Of a stretch of DNA of 64,000 nt, positions 40,059 through 52,479 are shown in pieces. The stretch comes from Chryseobacterium sp. (GTDB lineage: Bacteria; Bacteroidota; Bacteroidia; Flavobacteriales; Weeksellaceae): contig NZ_JAFAJM010000004.1 of assembly GCF_019236175.1 (NCBI RefSeq), positions 124,001 through 188,000 on the forward strand, read 5' to 3'. The notes beneath the pieces are model-generated. The model was given only the letters and a program-made list of their open reading frames with translations. It was not told the origin of the DNA and made no database searches. The first letter of the stretch is position 1, and each line of letters opens with the position of its first letter. Position numbers and translations under genes: made by a program.

Positions 40059-41216
40059 TTATTGTTTTTCAATATAGCCTTCATTAAACAATGTATTGGG
40101 CTTTATATAAACAGTATTAGTCTGAAAATCCAGAAAAACATTAAACCTTTTAAGAATTTCATTTCCCAGAATATTCATTTTTTTATCATTAACCGGTCTG
40201 CTTTCAGAAAGCAACTGGGCCGGAATATTGTTGAGGCTGTATTTACCCAGACTAAGGGTTTCAAGATTGGCGGTAACAACCGGAATTTCGTTTCCTTTAG
40301 CTCCTCTCATCATCACTTTCTTTATAACCTTCATCTTATCGGTAGGAAATTTTTGTTCTCTTAGTAAAGGACCATCCAGCATTACGGTTCTCTGATAACC
40401 GGTATCAAACAGGAACCAATCTTTATTTTTCACAGCCCCCTGTTGTATTGTTGTTTCTACAAAAAATAATTTATCATAAAAAGTAAGGTTTAATTTTTCA
40501 TACGCTTTATCTTTTCTCACTTTTTCCGGAAGCTGAGAATGTACAATCATATTTCCCAGGTCATAATTAAGCTCTACCACCATTCCATCAAAGAGATCCC
40601 AGCCAAATCTTCCATCTGTACCATGTCCTGTCAGTTCTACTTTATAAATTCTGAAATCCTGATATTTTTTATTTCCGAGAGACAGAATATTTACGCCTGA
40701 TTTTAAGGATTGTTTAATTTTATTCTGTAAAGCTTCCTGAGTAAGAGAGAGGTTACTGCTTCCCGTATCGAAATTCAATGTAAGAGAGTCTGTTTTGTTT
40801 AGAGCTGCTTTTACAAACATTGTATTCTGTTCGTTAATTCCCATACGTATAGTATCATGGAAAGCAGGCTTTACACTACTAAAATCTTTAGAGGGTGCAC
40901 ACTCAATCCTTGTCATACATGAATCTTTGCCTTTCAGAAGTATAATAAAATCTTTTTTCTCACCTTTTTTTATTGTTATTCTGAGGGAATCAATATCTGT
41001 TTTCACCTTTATTATTTTCGAGCTGTTTACCATTCTGGAAACAGTATAGATATCAGGTTTTAGAGACGGATCAATATTCCAGTCTGTTTTCAGGCCATTA
41101 TCTTCTTCAATGAAAATTGCTTTGGAAGAATTGGCCTTCAATATGGGAAGTTTTTTCTGAGCCATTATCTGAAGGATTGAAAAAAATGATACTAAAAAAG
41201 CCAGTGTATATTTCAT
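40059..41216 (-). CDS. exported retropepsin-like aspartyl protease with two DTG motifs (RiPP cluster)
   Basis: 385 residues from the ATG at 41216, which gives a standard signal peptide (MKYTLAFLVSFFSILQIMAQ); an ATG at 41231 adds five codons and overlaps the previous stop as TAATG. Two aspartyl-protease motifs are visible, LNFDTGSSNLS (Asp about 150) and WFLFDTGYQRT (Asp about 271), each with a later hydrophobic-hydrophobic-Gly strand (NILGNEIL near the end), so the chain may make a whole active site by itself. Last gene of the radical-SAM peptide operon; plausibly cuts the peptide leader or the mature product in the periplasm. This role is inference. Confidence 0.8.
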   Translation of the reverse strand: MKYTLAFLVSFFSILQIMAQKKLPILKANSSKAIFIEEDNGLKTDWNIDPSLKPDIYTVSRMVNSSKIIKVKTDIDSLRITIKKGEKKDFIILLKGKDSCMTRIECAPSKDFSSVKPAFHDTIRMGINEQNTMFVKAALNKTDSLTLNFDTGSSNLSLTQEALQNKIKQSLKSGVNILSLGNKKYQDFRIYKVELTGHGTDGRFGWDLFDGMVVELNYDLGNMIVHSQLPEKVRKDKAYEKLNLTFYDKLFFVETTIQQGAVKNKDWFLFDTGYQRTVMLDGPLLREQKFPTDKMKVIKKVMMRGAKGNEIPVVTANLETLSLGKYSLNNIPAQLLSESRPVNDKKMNILGNEILKRFNVFLDFQTNTVYIKPNTLFNEGYIEKQ

Positions 41217-41230
41217 ATTAAAAGAGGGCA

Positions 41231-42106
41231 TTAAATTAAAAACTTTCCGAGATAGGTCATAAGAATATCAAGAGAACGGTTTCCCATCGTAGATCCGTCA
41301 TGAAAACAATTATCTGTAGGAGCTATATAATAATGATAAGGTTTATGCTCTATTCTTAAAACCGGATAATCAGGAAAAAGCTTAAAAAAATAAGAAGTAA
41401 TATTTTTATTGTTCACTTCATTTTCTTTAATATCAATTTTCTTTTTGATCATGTTATAAACCTGAAGCATGGAAAGATTAATAATGAGTAAATATCTCGA
41501 TTCTTTTCCCAGATTGAATGCAATACGGTTGCCGAATTTATGGGCCGTATGCAGCGTCATATCTTTGGAACTGTCTTTATGTACTCCTATAAATCTGACT
41601 TCATTAGCAGTATATCCTGAGGGCAGGTTTCTTTTATCTAAAGAAACTATTTCACTGTTTGCAAAATTAGCCGCCAGACTCATCAGTTTAAACGGGGCCA
41701 GAGAAATACTCTCCAGAAATGTATTTAATTTACCATTAATCTGATTGACCAGCATTTCGTTTTTCCTGAATCGATCATATACTTCAGCTTCTGTCTCTGC
41801 AGTCTGTAAATCCAGTTTAATAAAAAGTTCTTTGATATCATCAGAAATTTTTCCTGTAAAAACAGAATTATAATCCTTTTTATTTTTGTGATCTCCTGTA
41901 AAAATTTTATATTCCTCTACAGTAGGTGTACGCCAGTCTCTTTTAGGAAGGTACGCCTCCGGTTCATATCTTTGAACAAATTTTTCATTTTTAAAAATAA
42001 TCTCGTTCGGCGTTTGCTCAGAGTGATGTAGGGTACCTGAATTGATCTGAACGGTCTCTTCATGTCCATTCAGGTATATCTTAATTCCCGGTTTTAGTTT
42101 TTTCAT
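41231..42106 (-). CDS. RiPP-cluster protein A, putative HxD...H oxygenase-like
   Basis: 291 residues, no family recognised with certainty. Paralogous to the next gene upstream (42136-42966): both have a DWR(T/M)xTxxEY block near residue 57, an H-x-D (His176, Asp178), an NRI-x-N ... R-x-L-x-x-INL stretch, and the nearly identical C-terminal YPVLR(I/L)E-KPY-YYIAPTDN--HDG-T-GN (His269, Arg277). His-x-Asp, distal His and a basic residue 8 later is the pattern of Fe(II)/2-oxoglutarate oxygenases. A peptide hydroxylase role is inferred. Ends in an overlap with the protease gene; 29 bases after protein B. Confidence 0.75.
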   Translation of the reverse strand: MKKLKPGIKIYLNGHEETVQINSGTLHHSEQTPNEIIFKNEKFVQRYEPEAYLPKRDWRTPTVEEYKIFTGDHKNKKDYNSVFTGKISDDIKELFIKLDLQTAETEAEVYDRFRKNEMLVNQINGKLNTFLESISLAPFKLMSLAANFANSEIVSLDKRNLPSGYTANEVRFIGVHKDSSKDMTLHTAHKFGNRIAFNLGKESRYLLIINLSMLQVYNMIKKKIDIKENEVNNKNITSYFFKLFPDYPVLRIEHKPYHYYIAPTDNCFHDGSTMGNRSLDILMTYLGKFLI

Positions 42107-42135
42107 ATTGAGTTTCTTGCTATTTGCAGGTATAT

Positions 42136-42966
42136 CTAGTATTTATCAAATACACCTGTATAAACCATGGTAATATCAAAGAATTTATTTCCTAATGTGG
42201 TCCCGTCATGAATAAGGTTATCCGTGGGCGCAATATAATATTGATAGGGTTTTATTTCCAGTCTCAAAACAGGGTAATCAGGGTAAAGCTTAAAAAATTC
42301 TTCAACAATATTTTCGGACGTAATTTTTTCTGATTTTTTTTTCTGAATTTTAGTAAAAATCTGCCTTAGCGTGAGATTAATAAAATAGAGAAAACGGGGT
42401 TCAGTACTGATATTAATTGAAATTCTGTTATCTGATTTATACGCCGTATGAGGAGTAAAAAAAATACTTTTATCAATATGTAATCCTGTATATTTAAAAG
42501 TATTATGACCAGTATGATGAAAAGTTGTGCTTTGCATATCGGGCAATGATCTGGCAATTCTGTGGAATTTATATTTCCCGGCTGCAGATTTCTGATCCAA
42601 AAAAGCATTCAATTCCTGATTAAGCTTTTTAATAAGCTCTTCATTTTTTTCAAATTGCTTCGGAACATCAAAAAGCGACTCACATTCACTGAGTTTCAGA
42701 CTTTTAAATAAATGCTCTAAAGATAACGGAATGACTCCCATTCCCAAAGTATTAAACATTCGACTGTCCTCATTCGCTGTAAAAATTCTTCTGTATTCCT
42801 GATCAGTCAGCATTCGCCAATCTGAATTGGGTAAATAAGCATTGTGGTAATATTCAATCTCAGGATCATTATTTTCAACAGGTACAACCCCTGAATTGAT
42901 ACTGATCTGATCTTTTATATTATCAATCTGCCGATTGTAAACTCTAATACCTTCTTTTAAATTCAT
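42136..42966 (-). CDS. RiPP-cluster protein B, paralogue of protein A
   Basis: 276 residues. Aligns with protein A over most of its length, most closely in the last 50 residues. The putative metal residues are kept (His163, Asp165, His253); the downstream basic residue is Lys261 where A has Arg277. No signal peptide or membrane segment, so it acts in the cytoplasm. The start codon overlaps the radical SAM stop (ATGA), so the two proteins are made together. Tandem divergent paralogues suggest two sites or residues on the same peptide being modified, or a heterodimer. Confidence 0.75.
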   Translation of the reverse strand: MNLKEGIRVYNRQIDNIKDQISINSGVVPVENNDPEIEYYHNAYLPNSDWRMLTDQEYRRIFTANEDSRMFNTLGMGVIPLSLEHLFKSLKLSECESLFDVPKQFEKNEELIKKLNQELNAFLDQKSAAGKYKFHRIARSLPDMQSTTFHHTGHNTFKYTGLHIDKSIFFTPHTAYKSDNRISINISTEPRFLYFINLTLRQIFTKIQKKKSEKITSENIVEEFFKLYPDYPVLRLEIKPYQYYIAPTDNLIHDGTTLGNKFFDITMVYTGVFDKY

Positions 42967-44204
42967 ACTAAACTATAGGCTAATAATTTTTCTTTTATCT
43001 CCTGCTGCGGATCATTATAAGGCATGTTTTCCAGTTCCGCTACAATTTCATCATACGAAACTTTGGTAAGTTTCATGTCTTCACAAATATCTTCCGGAAG
43101 ACTATCGATAAGATCATTCTGTATATGGCTCACCAGCTTTATCATATCATGGCAGTAAATCGTAGGATTGTCGAACCCATTTTCTTCTGAATATCTGTTG
43201 AGCAGAAAACCACCGCCACAAATTTCATAAATCGGACACTGACTGCATTTCACATTGACCATCTGATGAGAATGGATATAAATATCAAAAAGAGGATCTT
43301 CCAGGACAGCTGCAATTTCATGAGTATGAATATTAATATCATTCCTGGTAATCCCTTCATAACAGGCTCTTATAGAATCTGCTACTTCCAGATTCCCGTT
43401 GGTTTCCACTACTGCTACTCCATTTTTTTTCAGACCTACCATCTGATCTCCAATTTCTTCACCGGCAACAAGCTGAATAAGAGTTTTGAAGAACCTCATA
43501 TTAGGTCTTTCCGGATCACTTTTCCATATTTCAAACAACTCTATGAGCCAATCTGCAAAAGGCGTATAGCCATAGGTATTTACCTTTTCACGAAGTATTC
43601 CGTCAGGCAATTTATCAAAATGTCCATCCGGAAGGAGAAGATTAAAACTCGGAATAGCAAGGTTTTTAAACTCCTGATAAAGTTCTGAAGGAATAATAGC
43701 AAGGTTAACGACAGACAGAACTCCATGCATCCCGTTATCCAGTCCAAGCTGAATAGCATTCCGCACATCATCATAGGATCCTTTACCGTTATGAAAAACA
43801 CGGTATTTATCGTGATATTCTTTAGGTCCGTCTATACTGATTCCGACGCGAATATTCAGTTCTTTAAAGAGGCTGTACCATTCTTCATTTAATCCGACAC
43901 CGTTGGTCTGAATTACAAAATCAAAATAGGAATCATTGAGTGTTTCTCTAAATATCCTTATACTTTCTCTGTAAAATTCTTTGGGGAAAAGCAAAGGTTC
44001 TCCTCCATGAAATACAATCTGAAAAGCTTTTATTCCATTTTCAGTACTATATCGTGATAATTTTTCAACGAATGTTTTTACAGTCTTTATGGACATTAAT
44101 TTAGGCTGCTCCAAATATGTTTTGTCTCCTAAATTATACATATAACAATAAGAACAGTTGAGGTTGCATCTGCTTGCAACCTTTAGAACAAAAGAAGTAA
44201 CCAT
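42963..44204 (-). CDS. radical SAM/SPASM peptide maturase (FxsB/XyeB-like, cyclophane-forming type)
   Basis: 413 residues. The radical SAM cluster motif CNLNCSYC gives Cys13, Cys17 and Cys20; FHGGEPLL and GISIDGPKEYHDKYR follow. A C-terminal SPASM region has Cys281, Cys320, Cys323, Cys329 and Cys351, with NVKCSQCPIYEICGGG and the FxsB-like stretch GFDNPTIYCHD. These traits, and LKVASRCNLNCSYCYMYN with LLPDGHFD, place it near the maturases that make three-residue cyclophanes (triceptides). It follows the precursor gene after a 71-base gap containing a hairpin. Confidence 0.9.
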   Translation of the reverse strand: MVTSFVLKVASRCNLNCSYCYMYNLGDKTYLEQPKLMSIKTVKTFVEKLSRYSTENGIKAFQIVFHGGEPLLFPKEFYRESIRIFRETLNDSYFDFVIQTNGVGLNEEWYSLFKELNIRVGISIDGPKEYHDKYRVFHNGKGSYDDVRNAIQLGLDNGMHGVLSVVNLAIIPSELYQEFKNLAIPSFNLLLPDGHFDKLPDGILREKVNTYGYTPFADWLIELFEIWKSDPERPNMRFFKTLIQLVAGEEIGDQMVGLKKNGVAVVETNGNLEVADSIRACYEGITRNDINIHTHEIAAVLEDPLFDIYIHSHQMVNVKCSQCPIYEICGGGFLLNRYSEENGFDNPTIYCHDMIKLVSHIQNDLIDSLPEDICEDMKLTKVSYDEIVAELENMPYNDPQQEIKEKLLAYSLV

Positions 44205-44275: not shown

Positions 44276-44497
44276 TTAAGCTCTTAAAAAAGTATCGATA
44301 ACTCTATCGTATGCTGCGGAAGCTCCTGTAACAGCAACTACACCACAATTATCACCCGGAAGAACGATACCGATATTACCACGGCCTCCAAAAATAGATT
44401 TGTAAAGATCCACATTTTCTTTTTCAGAGTTCTGGATTGATTTTTTAAGAATTTCTTTTTGTTCTAGATTACTGGAAATTTGAAGTTTCTTTTTCAT
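44276..44497 (-). CDS. RiPP precursor peptide
   Basis: 73 residues. The first 34 are a charged, helical leader (Lys/Glu-rich, LEQKEILKKSIQNSEKENVD). Then come FGGRGNIGIVLPGDNCGVVAVTGASAA, Gly- and Ala-rich with one Cys (residue 51), and a C-terminal AAYDRVIDTFLRA. The two aromatic-x-x triplets Tyr63-Asp64-Arg65 and Phe70-Leu71-Arg72 fit the aromatic-X-(basic or polar) pattern that cyclophane maturases join. It is first in the operon, with a full promoter close by. Precursor status is inferred from size, position next to the maturase and composition. Confidence 0.8.
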   Translation of the reverse strand: MKKKLQISSNLEQKEILKKSIQNSEKENVDLYKSIFGGRGNIGIVLPGDNCGVVAVTGASAAYDRVIDTFLRA

Positions 44498-44675: not shown

Positions 44676-46832
44676 TTATTTTACAGGTTTAATGGAGATA
44701 GCGAAACCACCACTTCTTACCATTTTAAAATTAATTTTTGATTTGCCTGTAATCTCTTTTTTATAGATATGATAGCTTTGAGGATTATCGATATAATCTG
44801 CATCTTTTCCATCTTCATAGATCGTTGCTTCATATTTTTTTCCTTTATCCAGGAATGAGAAGTCTACCGTGTAATCGCGTTTGTTTTCATCCGTAATTCC
44901 TCCCACAAACCAGTTTTCCGTTCCTTTTGCTTTTCTTGCCGTGATGACATAATCTCCCGGTTCTGCGGCTAAGATCTTCGTATCATCCCAGTCTGCCGCT
45001 ACATCTTTGATAAACTGAAATGCATCCATATGCTTCTTATAATTTTCAGGAAGATCTGCGGCCATCTGAAGCGGCATATACATCGTTACATATAATGCAA
45101 GCTGTTTAGCCAGTGTTGTTTTCACAGAACGATTATCTCCAGGGAAATAATAGTCTAATTTGGTCTCGAAAATTCCTGGTGTATAGTCCATTGAACCTCC
45201 CATCCATCTTGTAAACGGAAGAACGGTCTGATGGTCTGGTTTGTTTCCACCGAAAGCTTCATATTCCGTACCACGGGCTGCTTCCGCAGAGATATAGTTC
45301 GGATAGGTACGGCTTTCTCCTGTAGGGCGTACGGACTCATGAGAATTGACCATGATTTTATATTCATTTGCTTTTTCAGCAATTCTGTAATAATGGTTGA
45401 TCATCCATTGAGAATAATGATGTTCTCCTCTGGGAATAATATCTCCTACATATCCAGTTTTCACAGCATCATAGCCATATTTGTTCATCAGCTGGAATGC
45501 TTTGTCAGACCACCTTTCATAGTTTGCCGCAGAACCTGATGTTTCATGGTGCATGATCAGCTTAATACCTTTAGAATGGGCATACTCGTTCAACATTTTG
45601 ATATCAAAATCCGGGTAAGGTGTAATGAAATCGAAAACAAAATCTTTAGAATGTCCGAACCAGTCTTCCCAACCGATATTCCATCCTTCGATCAATAATC
45701 CCTGAAAGCCGTTTTCAGCTGCAAAGTCAATATATTCTTTAACTTTTGTGTTGTTAGCGGCATGCTTTCCATTAGGCGTTAATTTGGTGAAGTCTGTTTT
45801 ATCGATATGAACATTTTCAGCAGTAGAATATGCCCATTGTGATTTTCCGATGATCATTTCCCACCATACCCCCATATATTTTGTAGGGTGGATATAAGAG
45901 GTATCTTTATATTTCGTCGGCTCATTAAGGTTGAAAATCATTTTAGAGTCCATCACCTGTTCTGCTTTCGGAGCTACAATGATTGTTCTCCACGGTGTTG
46001 TAGAAGGAGTCTGGATATATCCTTTAGCTCCTTGTCTGTCTGCTGTTAAATGCGTCTTGAACTTAAAATTCTGTGCATCTACTTCTAAATGAGAAGCCGG
46101 ATAATCTAATACGGCTGCCTCCGCAACATTAATATACAAAGGTTCTTTTCCTTCTCTTTTAAGCATCAACGGTGACTGAACTGCATTTTTCACCAATGTC
46201 TGAGAAGCATTAGCATCATACGCCTGAGCCCATTTTGACGGAATTTCAGAAACTTTTGTTTCCTGATACTGATATTCCTGAGAGTCATAGTCCGCTACGA
46301 TCCACCATGCTTTCATATCGGTAGGAAAATCAATTTCCGAGTCTTCTTCTCTGATGACAAAATAATTAAGATTTTTCTGCTGCGGGAATTCGTATCTGAA
46401 CCCCAGTCCGTCATTGAACAATCTGAATTTTACGACAATACTTCTGTCTGTAGAAGCCTGATTCAGGGTAACAGCCAGTTCATTATAATTATTGATATAA
46501 TTTTTCTTTTCTCCAAGAACCGGTTGCCATTTTTCATTTTTGGAGTCTCTTTTTTCCTCTACTTTGGCAAAACCGTTATTAAGATCGAATTTTGCATCTT
46601 CTGGTTTCGCAATTTCGGAAGCAAATTTAATAGCAGTGTCTTTAAATAATCTTAACCCTAATTTAGAATCTTCAACTACTACTCCTCCGTTGTATTTAAG
46701 GTTGTAGTAAGGTACTCCGTCTTTCAGCTGAAAATTCATTTCGAACTTACCGTCCGGAGATTTTAAAGATTGTGCTTTCACACCTACAAACATCATTGAG
46801 AGCAAAAGGGCTCCAACTGTAATTTTCTTCAT
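44676..46832 (-). CDS. susB: GH97 alpha-glucosidase (SusB-like, inverting type)
   Basis: 718 residues with a signal peptide (ends GVKAQ). N-terminal beta-sandwich, central barrel, C-terminal sheet. The catalytic Glu residues of the inverting SusB subgroup are all in place: MHHETSGS (Glu430), VNSHESVRPTG (Glu499) and RGTEYEAFGG (Glu523), at a constant offset of nine from SusB. It releases glucose from maltodextrins in the periplasm. Fourth gene of the Sus operon, 78 bases after the SusE-like gene, and followed by a strong terminator. Confidence 0.95.
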   Translation of the reverse strand: MKKITVGALLLSMMFVGVKAQSLKSPDGKFEMNFQLKDGVPYYNLKYNGGVVVEDSKLGLRLFKDTAIKFASEIAKPEDAKFDLNNGFAKVEEKRDSKNEKWQPVLGEKKNYINNYNELAVTLNQASTDRSIVVKFRLFNDGLGFRYEFPQQKNLNYFVIREEDSEIDFPTDMKAWWIVADYDSQEYQYQETKVSEIPSKWAQAYDANASQTLVKNAVQSPLMLKREGKEPLYINVAEAAVLDYPASHLEVDAQNFKFKTHLTADRQGAKGYIQTPSTTPWRTIIVAPKAEQVMDSKMIFNLNEPTKYKDTSYIHPTKYMGVWWEMIIGKSQWAYSTAENVHIDKTDFTKLTPNGKHAANNTKVKEYIDFAAENGFQGLLIEGWNIGWEDWFGHSKDFVFDFITPYPDFDIKMLNEYAHSKGIKLIMHHETSGSAANYERWSDKAFQLMNKYGYDAVKTGYVGDIIPRGEHHYSQWMINHYYRIAEKANEYKIMVNSHESVRPTGESRTYPNYISAEAARGTEYEAFGGNKPDHQTVLPFTRWMGGSMDYTPGIFETKLDYYFPGDNRSVKTTLAKQLALYVTMYMPLQMAADLPENYKKHMDAFQFIKDVAADWDDTKILAAEPGDYVITARKAKGTENWFVGGITDENKRDYTVDFSFLDKGKKYEATIYEDGKDADYIDNPQSYHIYKKEITGKSKINFKMVRSGGFAISIKPVK

Positions 46833-46910
46833 AATGACTATTTATTAACTTTAAAACAGACAAAGTACTGCTTTACTGCAGCACTCTGCCATTTATAATT
46901 TGATTTTTAT

Positions 46911-48029
46911 TTACAATTTTGTAACAGTTAATTTATAATAAGCTGAGTTATGCAAATCCAGCTCTATTTTATAATTACCCGCCTGTGAAACTTTATATCC
47001 TGAATCTCCTGTTACTGTTCCTTCTGAATTTAAATACGATTGTACACTCATTCCGGAAACCAGAGTCTGATCAGCATCTTTTGGCTGAAATTTCATCACC
47101 CAGTCATCATTTGCTCTGAATTTAAACACGCCATTATTCGTCAGGGCAATTGAATTAATTATATAAGTCTTACTAATGGGATTGTATACAAAGTCTGTAT
47201 CAGAATCCCAACCCGTAGGTGTAGCATCACCAATAATCCCAAAGTTTGCAATAACATTAGAATAGGTATTAGCAGCCCAGTCTACTTTAACATAATACGT
47301 TCCGGTTACCGATGACTTAATGTTTGAACCTCCTAAAAGAAGTTTCCCTGAATTAGTTCCGTCATCTCCTTTATTCTCTGACCAGCTTTCATTAATTGTA
47401 AACTTATACTGTCCGTTTTCTCCTGTCAGATCGGTAATATAAAGAAATCCTCTGTATTTATCATTTTTCTCAGGAGAGAATAAATTAGCAGTATTGGTAG
47501 GTTCCCAATTTGCATATCCGGCAGCTCCACCGAATCCGCCCGGTACATTAATTTTAGGATAAATCAGATCCGGGTTTGGAGCATATCCAGTAATATTAAT
47601 CGTTAATACATTAGAATAATACACAGTGGTAGCATTTAAAGCTGATTTTAATCTGACTTCAATAGCTTTTGCAGCATTGGGCGCAACATTTAATGTCCCT
47701 AGAATTGTATTTAGCTGTAGATGGGTTAATGAGAATGTCTTTTGATCCATTGATACAGTTTGAGCTGCACTTGATTTAAAATTAGTTCCTGCTACTGCAA
47801 ATTCTACAGAGTTTGCAAAAACTACATTAGGATTAAAAGTCGGATTTGTATACGTAAAATTTAAAGCAGCTTCATTAGCTAAAGTCTCATCTAAAACAAT
47901 GGCCGTTTTATTGACTGTTAAGCTTCCGTTTGATGTATTATTAAGAACAATTTTATCATCATCTTCTCTACAGGAAACAATGAGATAACTCACTATTCCT
48001 ATTAGAAATATTTTAAAAATATTTTTCAT
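46911..48029 (-). CDS. SusE/SusF-like outer-membrane starch-binding lipoprotein
   Basis: 372 residues. Lipobox YLIVSCRED with acidic residues after the Cys, typical of surface-exposed Bacteroidetes lipoproteins. An N-terminal SusE domain (about 35-155, SLTVNKTAIVLDETLANEAALNFTYTNP) is followed by starch-binding modules (about 170-270 and 275-372, each with Trp and aromatic residues). It should hold starch at the cell surface for SusC/D. 17 bases after susD, in the same operon. Confidence 0.88.
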   Translation of the reverse strand: MKNIFKIFLIGIVSYLIVSCREDDDKIVLNNTSNGSLTVNKTAIVLDETLANEAALNFTYTNPTFNPNVVFANSVEFAVAGTNFKSSAAQTVSMDQKTFSLTHLQLNTILGTLNVAPNAAKAIEVRLKSALNATTVYYSNVLTINITGYAPNPDLIYPKINVPGGFGGAAGYANWEPTNTANLFSPEKNDKYRGFLYITDLTGENGQYKFTINESWSENKGDDGTNSGKLLLGGSNIKSSVTGTYYVKVDWAANTYSNVIANFGIIGDATPTGWDSDTDFVYNPISKTYIINSIALTNNGVFKFRANDDWVMKFQPKDADQTLVSGMSVQSYLNSEGTVTGDSGYKVSQAGNYKIELDLHNSAYYKLTVTKL

Positions 48030-48046
48030 TTTAATTCAATTTTAAA

Positions 48047-49606
48047 TTAATAGCCAGGATTTTGAGTTAAATTAGGATTCGCCTGCAAAGCACTGCTTGG
48101 AATTGGGAATATTTTATAGTTATCTGAAATTGAAGTTCCATTTTTCACACCCCCTTTCCATGGCCATACATATGTTCCTCCCGTAAATTTACCAAATCGG
48201 ATAAGATCCTGTCTTCTCATTCCTTCAAAATTCAATTCTCTGGCTCTCTCATCCAAAACTATATCTAAATTTATTGAACTCAATTGTGTAGCTCCTGCTC
48301 TTGCTCTTACCTGATTTAGATAGATAAGCCCCTGAGGAACTGTCACTCCTGATGCGCCTCTTAAAGCACACTCAGCATACATCAGATAGACATCAGCAAG
48401 TCTGAATAGCGGAAAATCTGTTGAAGAGAAATCTGTCGCACCTCCGACACCATTTGAATCTTTATTCCAAAACTTATCTGAAGGAAGTCCGTCAGACCAT
48501 GTTTTATAATCGTTCATTTCCCAGTTGTGACCTTGGGTCCAGAATAGTTTTGCTCTTTTATCAGGGCTTGCCTGAAGATCCGCAATACTGTTACCAAATA
48601 ATCCGTACCAGGCTTTAGTAGCTCTGTGACCGGCCCATCCTTGTTTAGCTCCAAAATCCGCAGGTACCATAGTATCTGTACTTATACTTCCATTAACAAG
48701 GTAAGTGGTATTTCCAAAACTCTGGCTGGATACCGCATCTGCTAAAAGTGGAAAAATGATTTCCTTGGAAGTATTATTATCCGATGAGAAATTTTTTCTG
48801 ATATTGGCTTCCAACTGATACCCTCCTTCGTTAATAATTTTATTGATCAAACTTGCAGCATCATTATATCTCGCCGTTCCTGTATATACTTCCGCGTTAA
48901 GATATAATTTAGCTAAAAGCATTCTTGCGCAAGACTTATTGGCTCTACCATAGGAATTCGTCGCAGGCAGTGAAGCTTCTATCGCCAGTAATTCACTTTC
49001 AACATAATTGAACAGATCTTTTCTTGACATTTCCGGTAAAAGTGCACTTGTATTGAAATTGTCATCATTTACCAATACTCCCTTTCCAAATAAATCTATT
49101 AAATAATAATAAGATAAAGCTCTTAAAAATCTCAATTCATCTACAACTTGATTTTTATTTGCATAATTCACCTTATCACTTTTCATAATAAGAATTAAAT
49201 TCGTTGCCTGTGGAATTGTATAATAGATTCTGTCATAAACATACTTGAAAAATTTATTATTCGAAGTCCAGTTGGTAGTTGTTGTTAACTGGTCCAGCCC
49301 ATTATCACCCCATCTATTTTTCATATCATCTGCAGTAAAATCCTGCAGGTTGACGAGCCCTCTTACGAATGGTGACTCTCCCGGATCAGCTCCTGAAATA
49401 TCAGATTTATCTGGTCCTTCCACACTTGAAAGTGCAAAACTAGCATATAACCTTGATAATAAGCCCTCTACTGCATTTGGATCTGCTGCCAATAGGTTTT
49501 CTAAAGTTTGTTCTACTTTAGGTTCTGTATTTAAATCATTAAGACAAGATGTATTCACAGCCAAGAAAGCCAGAAGAACCAGTACTTTATATTTAGTATT
49601 TTTCAT
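48047..49606 (-). CDS. susD: SusD/RagB-type nutrient-binding lipoprotein
   Basis: 519 residues, lipobox LAVNTSCLNDLNTEP. Typical SusD path: TPR-like helices (LRALSYYYLIDLFGKGVLV, FRLADVYLMYAECALRGA), RARAG, ELNFEGMRRQDLIRFGKF and the C-terminal FPIPSSALQANPNLTQNPGY. It forms the lid of the SusC transporter and binds maltodextrins. 11 bases after susC; translationally close. Confidence 0.93.
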   Translation of the reverse strand: MKNTKYKVLVLLAFLAVNTSCLNDLNTEPKVEQTLENLLAADPNAVEGLLSRLYASFALSSVEGPDKSDISGADPGESPFVRGLVNLQDFTADDMKNRWGDNGLDQLTTTTNWTSNNKFFKYVYDRIYYTIPQATNLILIMKSDKVNYANKNQVVDELRFLRALSYYYLIDLFGKGVLVNDDNFNTSALLPEMSRKDLFNYVESELLAIEASLPATNSYGRANKSCARMLLAKLYLNAEVYTGTARYNDAASLINKIINEGGYQLEANIRKNFSSDNNTSKEIIFPLLADAVSSQSFGNTTYLVNGSISTDTMVPADFGAKQGWAGHRATKAWYGLFGNSIADLQASPDKRAKLFWTQGHNWEMNDYKTWSDGLPSDKFWNKDSNGVGGATDFSSTDFPLFRLADVYLMYAECALRGASGVTVPQGLIYLNQVRARAGATQLSSINLDIVLDERARELNFEGMRRQDLIRFGKFTGGTYVWPWKGGVKNGTSISDNYKIFPIPSSALQANPNLTQNPGY

Positions 49607-49617
49607 TTTTAATGCTT

Positions 49618-52479
49618 TTAGAAATTAAAATTAAATCCAATAGTATACGTTCGTGGTCTTGGATAGAAATTATTATCAATACCAGTAAAGTTTTCAGGAT
49701 CCTGTCCTGAATAATTTGTCCAAGTATAGACATTATTGACAGAAGCGTATACTCTTACATTTGTATTTTTAAACACATTTTTAAATAAATAACCTACTGT
49801 TACATTATCAAGTTTCAGGAATGTTGCATCTTCTAAAAAATAGTCTGAGAAGTAAAGGTTATCCGACAATGTAAATGGAGAATCTGCAGTGGAAGCTAAA
49901 ACATTATTTAAGTTTTGTGAATTTTGAGGTACCGTATAACTCTTAAAACCTTGTGCTAATTTTCTTGTATTATAAATCAATCCTCCTATCTGTCCTCTGA
50001 ATGCAGCATTAAAATCCCAGTTTTTATAAGTTAAAGAAGTACTGAAACCATAGGTCCATCTAGGTCTTATTGCTTTATAATATCTATCTTTTTCATTGAT
50101 AACTCCATCATTATTTCTATCTACATATACATTATCAAGAGGTCTGCCGTTAGCGTCATAAACCTGTTCCAATACCCATGCAGAATAAGGCTGATATCCT
50201 ATAGCATTGTTGGCAATCTTAATACCTGTTCCAATAGGAAGAGTACTGGAATTATCAGGGAAATAACTGACATCTCCCAGGCTTAATATTTTAGAATCAT
50301 TATATCCTATATTACCTGATACCGACCAGTTTACATTCTCATTCTTTACAGGAACTACCGTTACATTAAATTCAACTCCTTTATTTTCGAGAGAGCCGAC
50401 ATTAGTGGTAAACTCATTACTTAAACCCTGTCCTGCAGGCAACGGTACCTTTGCTAAAAGATTTGTAGTTTTTCTTTTATAAACATCAATGCTACCTGTT
50501 ACTCTCTCTTGTCTGAAGAATGAAAAATCAATACCTCCGTTCCAGGTATCTGTAGTTTCCCATGTCAGACCTGGATTGAACGGTAATGCACTATATGTTC
50601 CAACACCGGGAAAATATTGGGAGTTTGCCCCACCAATAGAAAAATATGGACTTGAAGGATAGAATCCTGCAACACTTACAATATCAGCATTTCCTGTTCT
50701 ACCCCAGCCTAATCTCAATTTAAGATCTCTTACAGATGAAGAATCAGTAAAGAAGTCTTTATTAATCTTCCAGGCAAATCCTACTCCGGGAAAGTACCCC
50801 CATCTTTCCCCCTTTTGAAACAAAGAAGAAGCATCTGCTCTGAAGTTCAGGGTAAATAAATATTTATCATAGAAGTCAATATTTGCTCTTCCTATGAAAG
50901 ACTGTAAGTTCAGTACATTATAATATCTGTTGGTTGGGTTTAAAGCAGTCCCCGGATTGGAAACTCTTTTTCCGGTCACATCATCATATCTGTATTGCTC
51001 CTTATAACCATCATTTTTAAAGTTCTGATAAGAATACCCTCCCTGAACCAGAAAATGAGAAAGAAAACCTGAATATTTTTTCTCATATACTAAATAAGCA
51101 TCCATGGTCTGATTGACAATATTCTGATGTTCAGCATAATCAACACCCGGACTGAACACATAATCGTTCGGAACAAACAGATTTTGCGGATTCCTGTACG
51201 TTGCAATTGCATTGTCTGAATACACTGTTTTCAGATTAGATCTCGAAGCTTCCAAACCTAAATTAACAATAGCTCTTAAATCAGGCAAAAAATGAAATTT
51301 ATAATTAATCTCAGCATTTCCTAGAAACTTAGCAATCTTCTGAGGAGAAGTCCTCTGCATAAGAATTGCCAAAGGATTGCTCTGTCCCTGAATAAGGTAT
51401 TGATTCCCTTTCAGAACAGTATTCTGATAATATCCGCCAAATCTGTTATACGGATCCCCCGTTAAACTGGTTTGAGCCTGATAAATCGGTAATGTTGGAT
51501 TCATATTAATAGCGCCTCCGATTGCTCCGCCATCATCAATTGCATTCAGATTTGAAAATAACCCTTTCAAACTGACATCCACTTTTAAATGATTATCAAA
51601 AAAAGAAGGTGTAATATTTAAACCGGCTGAAAATCTTTCATAATCACTGGTTTTAATCACCCCTTCAGTTCTGTTATATCCAACTGATAATCTTGTAGGA
51701 ACCTTATTAAATAGACTCCCGGAAACACTTAGGTTATTATCTGAAGAAACAGAATTTCTGTAAATCGCTTTCTGCCAGTCTGTATTATAGATCTTCCCCG
51801 GCTGGGTTGGGTTTGCTGAATTGCCTCCTACACCCAGTAAATAATTATAATTAGGGTAATTCTGATTGACGAATTTTGTAAATTCATCGGCATTCATCAC
51901 ATCAATATACCTTGTTACCGTACCCACAGAGACATTCGTACTTAAATTCACCTTAAGCTTTCCGCCTCCTCTTTTCGTCTTGATGATAATAACCCCATTT
52001 GAACCTCTGTTTCCGTAAATTGCCGTTGCAGAAGCATCTTTTAATATTGAAAAAGATTCAATATCATTAGGATTTATCAAATTTAGGGGATTACCTACAC
52101 CTGCAGGATTATTGGTATCCAGCGGCACTCCGTCGATTACAATTAAGGGATTGTTATTAGCACTAAAGGAAGAACCTCCTCTGATTCTGATATTTGGAGC
52201 AGAATCCGGTGATCCACCGGCATTTGTAATCCTTACTCCGGGAGCCTTACCTGTAATTAATTGATCTGCAGATACAATTGCCCCTTTGTTAAAATCCTTT
52301 TCAGAAACAGCAGTAATAGATCCCGTAAGATCAGATTTTTTCTGTTTTCCATACCCTACTAAAACAACCTCTTCAATTTTCTTTTCCTTTGTGACAGAGT
52401 CTTTTGTCTGCGCGTGCATTATTGTACTGGCCAATAAAAAAGCGGGCGCAACTTTTAATACCGTTGTAAAATTCTTCAC
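49618..52479 (-). CDS. susC: SusC/RagA-type TonB-dependent transporter
   Basis: 953 residues. The start is GTG (52479): no ATG exists in frame upstream, and the peptide MKNFTTVLKVAPAFLLASTIMHAQ is a good signal sequence. Short form, lacking the carboxypeptidase-like N-terminal domain: the signal is followed at once by EEVVLVGYGKQKKSDLTGS and the plug domain (GAPGVRITNAGGSPDSAPNIRIRGG), then the barrel, ending YTIGFNFNF. It imports maltodextrins across the outer membrane. A hairpin (52515-52529) and a 28-bp palindrome (52681-52708) lie upstream. Confidence 0.93.
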   Translation of the reverse strand: MKNFTTVLKVAPAFLLASTIMHAQTKDSVTKEKKIEEVVLVGYGKQKKSDLTGSITAVSEKDFNKGAIVSADQLITGKAPGVRITNAGGSPDSAPNIRIRGGSSFSANNNPLIVIDGVPLDTNNPAGVGNPLNLINPNDIESFSILKDASATAIYGNRGSNGVIIIKTKRGGGKLKVNLSTNVSVGTVTRYIDVMNADEFTKFVNQNYPNYNYLLGVGGNSANPTQPGKIYNTDWQKAIYRNSVSSDNNLSVSGSLFNKVPTRLSVGYNRTEGVIKTSDYERFSAGLNITPSFFDNHLKVDVSLKGLFSNLNAIDDGGAIGGAINMNPTLPIYQAQTSLTGDPYNRFGGYYQNTVLKGNQYLIQGQSNPLAILMQRTSPQKIAKFLGNAEINYKFHFLPDLRAIVNLGLEASRSNLKTVYSDNAIATYRNPQNLFVPNDYVFSPGVDYAEHQNIVNQTMDAYLVYEKKYSGFLSHFLVQGGYSYQNFKNDGYKEQYRYDDVTGKRVSNPGTALNPTNRYYNVLNLQSFIGRANIDFYDKYLFTLNFRADASSLFQKGERWGYFPGVGFAWKINKDFFTDSSSVRDLKLRLGWGRTGNADIVSVAGFYPSSPYFSIGGANSQYFPGVGTYSALPFNPGLTWETTDTWNGGIDFSFFRQERVTGSIDVYKRKTTNLLAKVPLPAGQGLSNEFTTNVGSLENKGVEFNVTVVPVKNENVNWSVSGNIGYNDSKILSLGDVSYFPDNSSTLPIGTGIKIANNAIGYQPYSAWVLEQVYDANGRPLDNVYVDRNNDGVINEKDRYYKAIRPRWTYGFSTSLTYKNWDFNAAFRGQIGGLIYNTRKLAQGFKSYTVPQNSQNLNNVLASTADSPFTLSDNLYFSDYFLEDATFLKLDNVTVGYLFKNVFKNTNVRVYASVNNVYTWTNYSGQDPENFTGIDNNFYPRPRTYTIGFNFNF

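Follow-up and report, generated by a model that had tools for sequence, protein, structure and literature searches.

Tandem paralogues predicted to be Fe(II)/2-oxoglutarate oxygenases in a putative cyclophane peptide operon of Chryseobacterium

The window, that is the whole stretch of 64,000 nucleotides that was analysed, belongs to a Chryseobacterium genome (next best match in the genome scan: C. phosphatilyticum) and carries a small RiPP operon with two adjacent genes, named A and B here, beside the gene of a radical SAM maturase. The locus raises the question of what kind of enzymes A and B are and on what they act. Taken as a whole, the probable answer is that the two are paired 2-oxoglutarate (2OG) oxygenases which oxidise the core of a cyclophane peptide made by the maturase. 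The genes concerned are the following.

44276-44497, minus strand: precursor peptide, 73 aa, with a double-glycine leader and a short core
42963-44204, minus strand: radical SAM/SPASM peptide maturase, 413 aa, nearest NCBIfam models YhhB and the FxsB family
42136-42966, minus strand: protein B, predicted Fe(II)/2OG oxygenase, 276 aa, first of the tandem pair (homology, fold, triad)
41231-42106, minus strand: protein A, predicted Fe(II)/2OG oxygenase, 291 aa, second of the tandem pair (homology, fold, invariant triad)
40059-41231, minus strand: aspartic protease, 390 aa, with an N-terminal signal-like segment (Asp_protease_2, 32.8 bits against a cut-off of 24.3)

Transcription on the minus strand runs from the precursor through the maturase, B and A to the aspartic protease. 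The precursor and the maturase are separated by a 71-base gap, the maturase and B overlap by 4 bases, B and A are 29 bases apart, and A overlaps the protease by 1 base. Since the maturase, B, A and the protease are packed this tightly, with short gaps and overlaps, they were read as an operon, and the gene coordinates agree with the preliminary description, which had placed the pair between maturase and protease. A run of genes like those for starch utilisation (large glycosidase, lipoprotein, SusD-like and SusC-like proteins) occupies window positions 44676-52479 on the minus strand, upstream of the RiPP operon; a comparable run adjoins the RiPP operon of C. phosphatilyticum.

A and B are 38% identical (BLASTP, E 2e-60) and are thus tandem paralogues, as had been proposed. 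Their AlphaFold models reached a pLDDT of 95.0 (A) and 94.9 (B) with a pTM of 0.92, and in the structural comparison (VIA) the best 50 rows for A and for B were all Fe(II)/2OG oxygenases. The top match was KdoO (A: Z 9.3, 194 residues aligned, 4.6 A; B: Z 10.3, 194 residues aligned, 4.4 A), followed by WelO5, FtmOx1, ALKBH7, JMJD7 and others, with alignments spanning nearly the whole model. Plain Foldseek searches returned weak E-values, yet mostly the same kind of enzyme. Both predicted models fit the double-stranded beta-helix of the 2OG oxygenases over nearly their full length, the fold that the preliminary description had expected. Searching with a profile of 75 homologues brought up a single protein of solved structure, PDB 9vkm, whose deposited name is "alpha-ketoglutarate-dependent non-heme iron oxygenase MicC". 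The profile matched it at E 1.7e-55 and B alone at E 7.5e-22; 9vkm was absent among the structural-comparison matches of the two models. With MicC as a full-length homologue, the earlier statement that the pair resembles nothing that could be named has to be withdrawn, while the oxygenase reading itself is borne out by the fold matches and by the name under which this homologue was deposited.

No Pfam or NCBIfam model detected A, B or the 75 relatives beyond chance-level matches, and the Pfam models 2OG-FeII_Oxy, JmjC and Cupin_8 gave no match over cut-off in any of the 75 members; A and B are not assigned to those families. A Variovorax protein (L093:7965-9554) combines the family domain with a canonical 2OG-FeII_Oxy_3 domain at its C-terminus (29.5 bits against a cut-off of 27), a fusion which was counted in favour of the 2OG oxygenase reading. 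Judged from homology and from the predicted models, A and B are almost certainly Fe(II)/2OG oxygenases.

All eight residues singled out earlier are in place (A: His176, Asp178, His269 and Arg277; B: His163, Asp165, His253 and Lys261), and the APTDN..HDG.T.GN block is indeed common to the two proteins. The codons of the putative active site are as follows.

41579-41581, 41573-41575 and 41300-41302, minus strand: A triad codons, His176, Asp178 and His269
41525-41527 and 41495-41497, minus strand: A invariant arginine codons, Arg194 and Arg204
42478-42480, 42472-42474 and 42208-42210, minus strand: B triad codons, His163, Asp165 and His253
42424-42426 and 42394-42396, minus strand: B invariant arginine codons, Arg181 and Arg191

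In the family alignment the His-x-Asp...His pattern (His176, Asp178 and His269 of A) was kept in 75 of 75 homologues. Since these span Bacteroidota, Cyanobacteriota, Actinomycetota, Acidobacteriota and Pseudomonadota, such invariance over five phyla puts the pattern beyond chance. Gly174, Asn193, Arg194, Asn198, Arg204, Tyr260, Thr264 and Asp270 (A numbering) were equally invariant. The signature of the 2OG halogenases is Gly or Ala in place of the triad Asp; with Asp178 present in all 75 members, halogenation was rejected as a reading of the family. The basic residue eight positions after the last His, on which the preliminary description had also relied, is present in A and B but is not conserved in the family, where the position of Arg277/Lys261 is variable (T 29, K 18, Q 7, N 4, S 4, E 3, R 2 and others among the 75 homologues). 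This residue is thus unlikely to anchor 2OG, and as a family-wide anchor it was rejected. The last predicted strand (280-287) holds no basic residue. Arg204 opens the predicted strand 204-208, and of the two invariant arginines it is the one shared by MicC; in position it would resemble the lysine of JmjC enzymes. From the alignment we infer that Arg194 or Arg204 is a better candidate for the 2OG anchor than the +8 residue, Arg204 being the likelier of the two.

The maturase of the window gave its top score of all NCBIfam models with YhhB (NF041707; 353.2 bits, below the cut-off of 445), and reached 316 bits with the FxsB family, below the cut-off of 370; both are cyclophane-forming families. 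A genome scan of 84,980 species yielded 42 loci, of which 38 were testable after 2 short remnants and 2 contig-end loci had been dropped. A radical SAM protein related to the window maturase was found near the oxygenase genes in 38 of 38 loci, directly adjacent in all but two, where it was about 1.8 and 3.1 kb off. The ten partner maturases sampled against NCBIfam were YhhB/FxsB-like, GrrM/OscB, XyeB-like or, once, nearest to DynA, and a GrrM/OscB match over cut-off was obtained in four loci; by these profile scores the partners are mostly of cyclophane-forming types. Of the 296 Weeksellaceae genomes covered, 21 contain a maturase of at least 61% identity, and in these same 21 the oxygenase pair adjoins it (21/21); the other maturase matches in this family of bacteria reach 44% identity at most and come without the oxygenase family, save in two species with a single gene.

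The preliminary description had asked whether the oxygenase family always accompanies this type of maturase. In the scan loci it did throughout, but a few distant members depart from this: no radical SAM protein lay in the stretch examined in Methylocystis parvus, Streptomyces NBC_01454 and two cyanobacteria, which indicates that use of the family is not limited to cyclophane peptides. The M. parvus member, on plasmid pMpar-1 (L108:5869-6882), is flanked by TonB/ABC iron-uptake genes and has a nitrogenase-like gene close by; in two cyanobacterial genomes a member has as neighbours a TPR-sulfotransferase and a conserved protein of 220 aa that no Pfam model matches. In C. pennipullorum and C. 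vrystaatense, and at two further loci, a precursor with WVK/FSK motifs is accompanied by a YhhB-like maturase, one oxygenase and a glycosyltransferase of family 9, a composition which suggests a glycosylated cyclophane peptide; the C. pennipullorum variant of this operon adds a C39-type exporter. Viral contigs held no relatives of the A/B family. A match of 32 residues to the C-terminal block alone was seen in Kaistella, Cloacibacterium and other genera, at a contig end or with an IS-type transposase nearby, and looks like the remnant of a decayed gene; a 43-aa open frame matching this block, considered at first as a possible precursor, was reread in the same way.

The precursor of the window is present in single copy in the genome. 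Its leader ends in the double-glycine site DLYKSIFGG, its core is RGNIGIVLPGDNCGVVAVTGASAAYDRVIDTFLRA, and Tyr63-Asp64-Arg65 and Phe70-Leu71-Arg72 are candidate three-residue cyclophane motifs. In nearly all Bacteroidota loci with oxygenase arrays an open reading frame of 67-106 aa with a double-glycine leader adjoins the maturase on its upstream side, and the cores follow the pattern C.VVA...[AG]Y[DNS][KR]..D..FL. Precursors beside GrrM/OscB-type maturases contain Trp/Phe-x-Asn triplets, as in described triceptides. In Chitinophaga and at other loci a C39-peptidase exporter adjoins the array. The window operon has none, four being encoded elsewhere in the genome, and in the window and its close kin the aspartic protease is found in its place; this enzyme is possibly the processing protease of the RiPP.

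On this basis the following course of events is proposed. The 73-aa precursor would be made with its double-glycine leader, which is seen in the sequence. The YhhB-like maturase would then close a three-residue cyclophane between Tyr63 and Arg65, and perhaps another between Phe70 and Arg72. This cross-link is proposed from the precedent of YhhB, which is reported to join Tyr C3 to Arg C-beta (PMC11002830), and its chemistry in the window is an extrapolation since the YhhB score lies under the model cut-off. B and A, with Fe(II) bound by His-x-Asp...His, would use 2OG and O2 on a C-H bond of the core, each at its own position and most likely by beta-hydroxylation. The leader would be cut at Gly-Gly, and further trimming by the aspartic protease may follow. 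Each paralogue would in this way oxidise, and probably hydroxylate, a C-H bond of the core ...CGVVAVTGASAAYDRVIDTFLRA, with Asp64, Asp68 and Arg65/Arg72 as candidate residues; the maturase product as substrate, the site and the hydroxylated product are what we infer, as are a separate site for each paralogue and the role of the protease.

The number of oxygenase genes differs between loci: over the 38 loci, one gene was found in 11, two in 13, three in 5 and four in 9. The tree places gene 1 of each multi-gene array, to which B of the window corresponds, apart from all genes at later positions, A and its relatives, with a support of 100/98 for the later-gene clade and a weaker 88/76 for the gene-1 clade. 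In the larger arrays the second and the fourth gene largely group by position across Chitinophagaceae, Flavobacteriaceae and Sphingobacteriaceae. The split and these groups together indicate that the duplications are old and that gene order has largely been kept. In this phylogeny B and A represent two old lineages common to several Bacteroidota families; B would descend from the lineage of array gene 1, and A from the lineage which in other Bacteroidota gave rise to as many as three additional genes. The triad was kept in every array copy sampled, and old, ordered, triad-bearing copies fit one enzyme per site, short of proof. Ahead of the Tyr of the core, the Arg-containing stretch is usually longer in loci with three or four genes than in those with two. 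Copy number may track core sequence, but this is only a hint, since the two-gene loci all come from one family. An ordered oxidation line, in which up to four old 2OG oxygenases in conserved order each oxidise their own core residue and the gene count dictates how many oxidations take place, can be put forward tentatively.

Other roles of the pair have to be weighed against this model. One paralogue could be catalytic and the other its partner or substrate-binding subunit, the pair forming a heterodimer. The strict keeping of two-gene pairs in Chryseobacterium and the presence of the solved TlxIJ heterodimer among the fold matches of both A and B would agree with such an arrangement; however, every copy in every array retains the full triad and the invariant arginines, and the existence of single-gene systems means that a partner is not generally required, so we regard the heterodimer as unlikely. 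Slightly less likely again is that A and B act on the RiPP by desaturation, oxidative crosslinking, backbone cleavage or decarboxylation and not by plain hydroxylation. The residues of A and B alone cannot separate hydroxylation from these other reactions, all of which 2OG enzymes as a class perform, and an alpha-ketoglutarate (alpha-KG) HEXXH enzyme cleaving the peptide backbone is a precedent among RiPPs; the alpha-KG enzymes characterised in RiPP pathways are nevertheless largely hydroxylases (PMC12636437), and the invariant Asp178 leaves the family without the halogenase signature.

The substrate could also be something else than the precursor, for example a sugar, a lipid or a free amino acid. 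KdoO, the top fold match, is a sugar hydroxylase, and some distant members occur in non-RiPP contexts such as the TonB/ABC iron-uptake region; but the likeness to KdoO is slight (11-13% identity, 4.3-4.6 A rmsd) and the pair is linked one-to-one with the RiPP maturase and precursor, which makes this explanation very improbable. That A and B act on the RiPP of their own operon is, conversely, probable.

Oxygenation of cyclophane peptides by alpha-KG enzymes was known already through an unrelated fold (ChlH, PMC12636437), and MicC has a solved structure. The literature search returned nothing relevant on MicC or on tandem oxygenases in cyclophane pathways, and the family as such, together with its grouping into ordered arrays with as many as four paralogues, appears undescribed within the literature searched. 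A tandem 2OG oxygenase pair, PcpX/PcpY, reportedly occurs in a triceptide pathway, and the novelty would be lower if it belonged to the same family. The results give a likely function to a family which is unrecognised by Pfam and NCBIfam and called hypothetical in annotated plasmid records, and the cyclophane (triceptide) RiPP pathways would gain a second oxidative step. Loci with one, two, three or four paralogues and similar cores form a natural series in which site selectivity is directly testable, and they are flagged for genome mining of oxidised cyclophane peptides.

Among known systems MicC (PDB 9vkm) stands closest, with full-length homology, His-x-Asp...His, Asn193, Asn198, Arg204, Tyr260, Ala262, Pro263 and the HDGST block in common with A and B. 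It differs in its identity of only about 25% and in having Ile for Arg194 and Ala for Thr264, and since it lacks these two residues the 2OG-anchoring residue is not fixed. KdoO, WelO5, FtmOx1, ALKBH7, KanJ and JMJD7 share the double-stranded beta-helix and the order of the iron triad, but their identity is 7-13%, their genomic context is another one, and A has no basic residue in the last predicted strand (280-287). The YhhB, FxsB and GrrM/OscB cyclophane (triceptide) pathways resemble the window in having a precursor followed by a radical SAM/SPASM maturase, with Tyr-x-Arg or Trp/Phe-x-Asn motifs in the core; in contrast to them, loci of the window type add one to four oxygenase genes, and the window maturase stays under the YhhB and FxsB cut-offs. 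The alpha-KG HEXXH hydroxylases of the ChlH type also act after a cyclophane maturase and beta-hydroxylate Asp and His (PMC12636437). Their HEXXH site lies on a zincin-like fold, whereas A and B are predicted to carry His-x-Asp...His on a beta-helix, so the two would be analogous solutions of unrelated origin.
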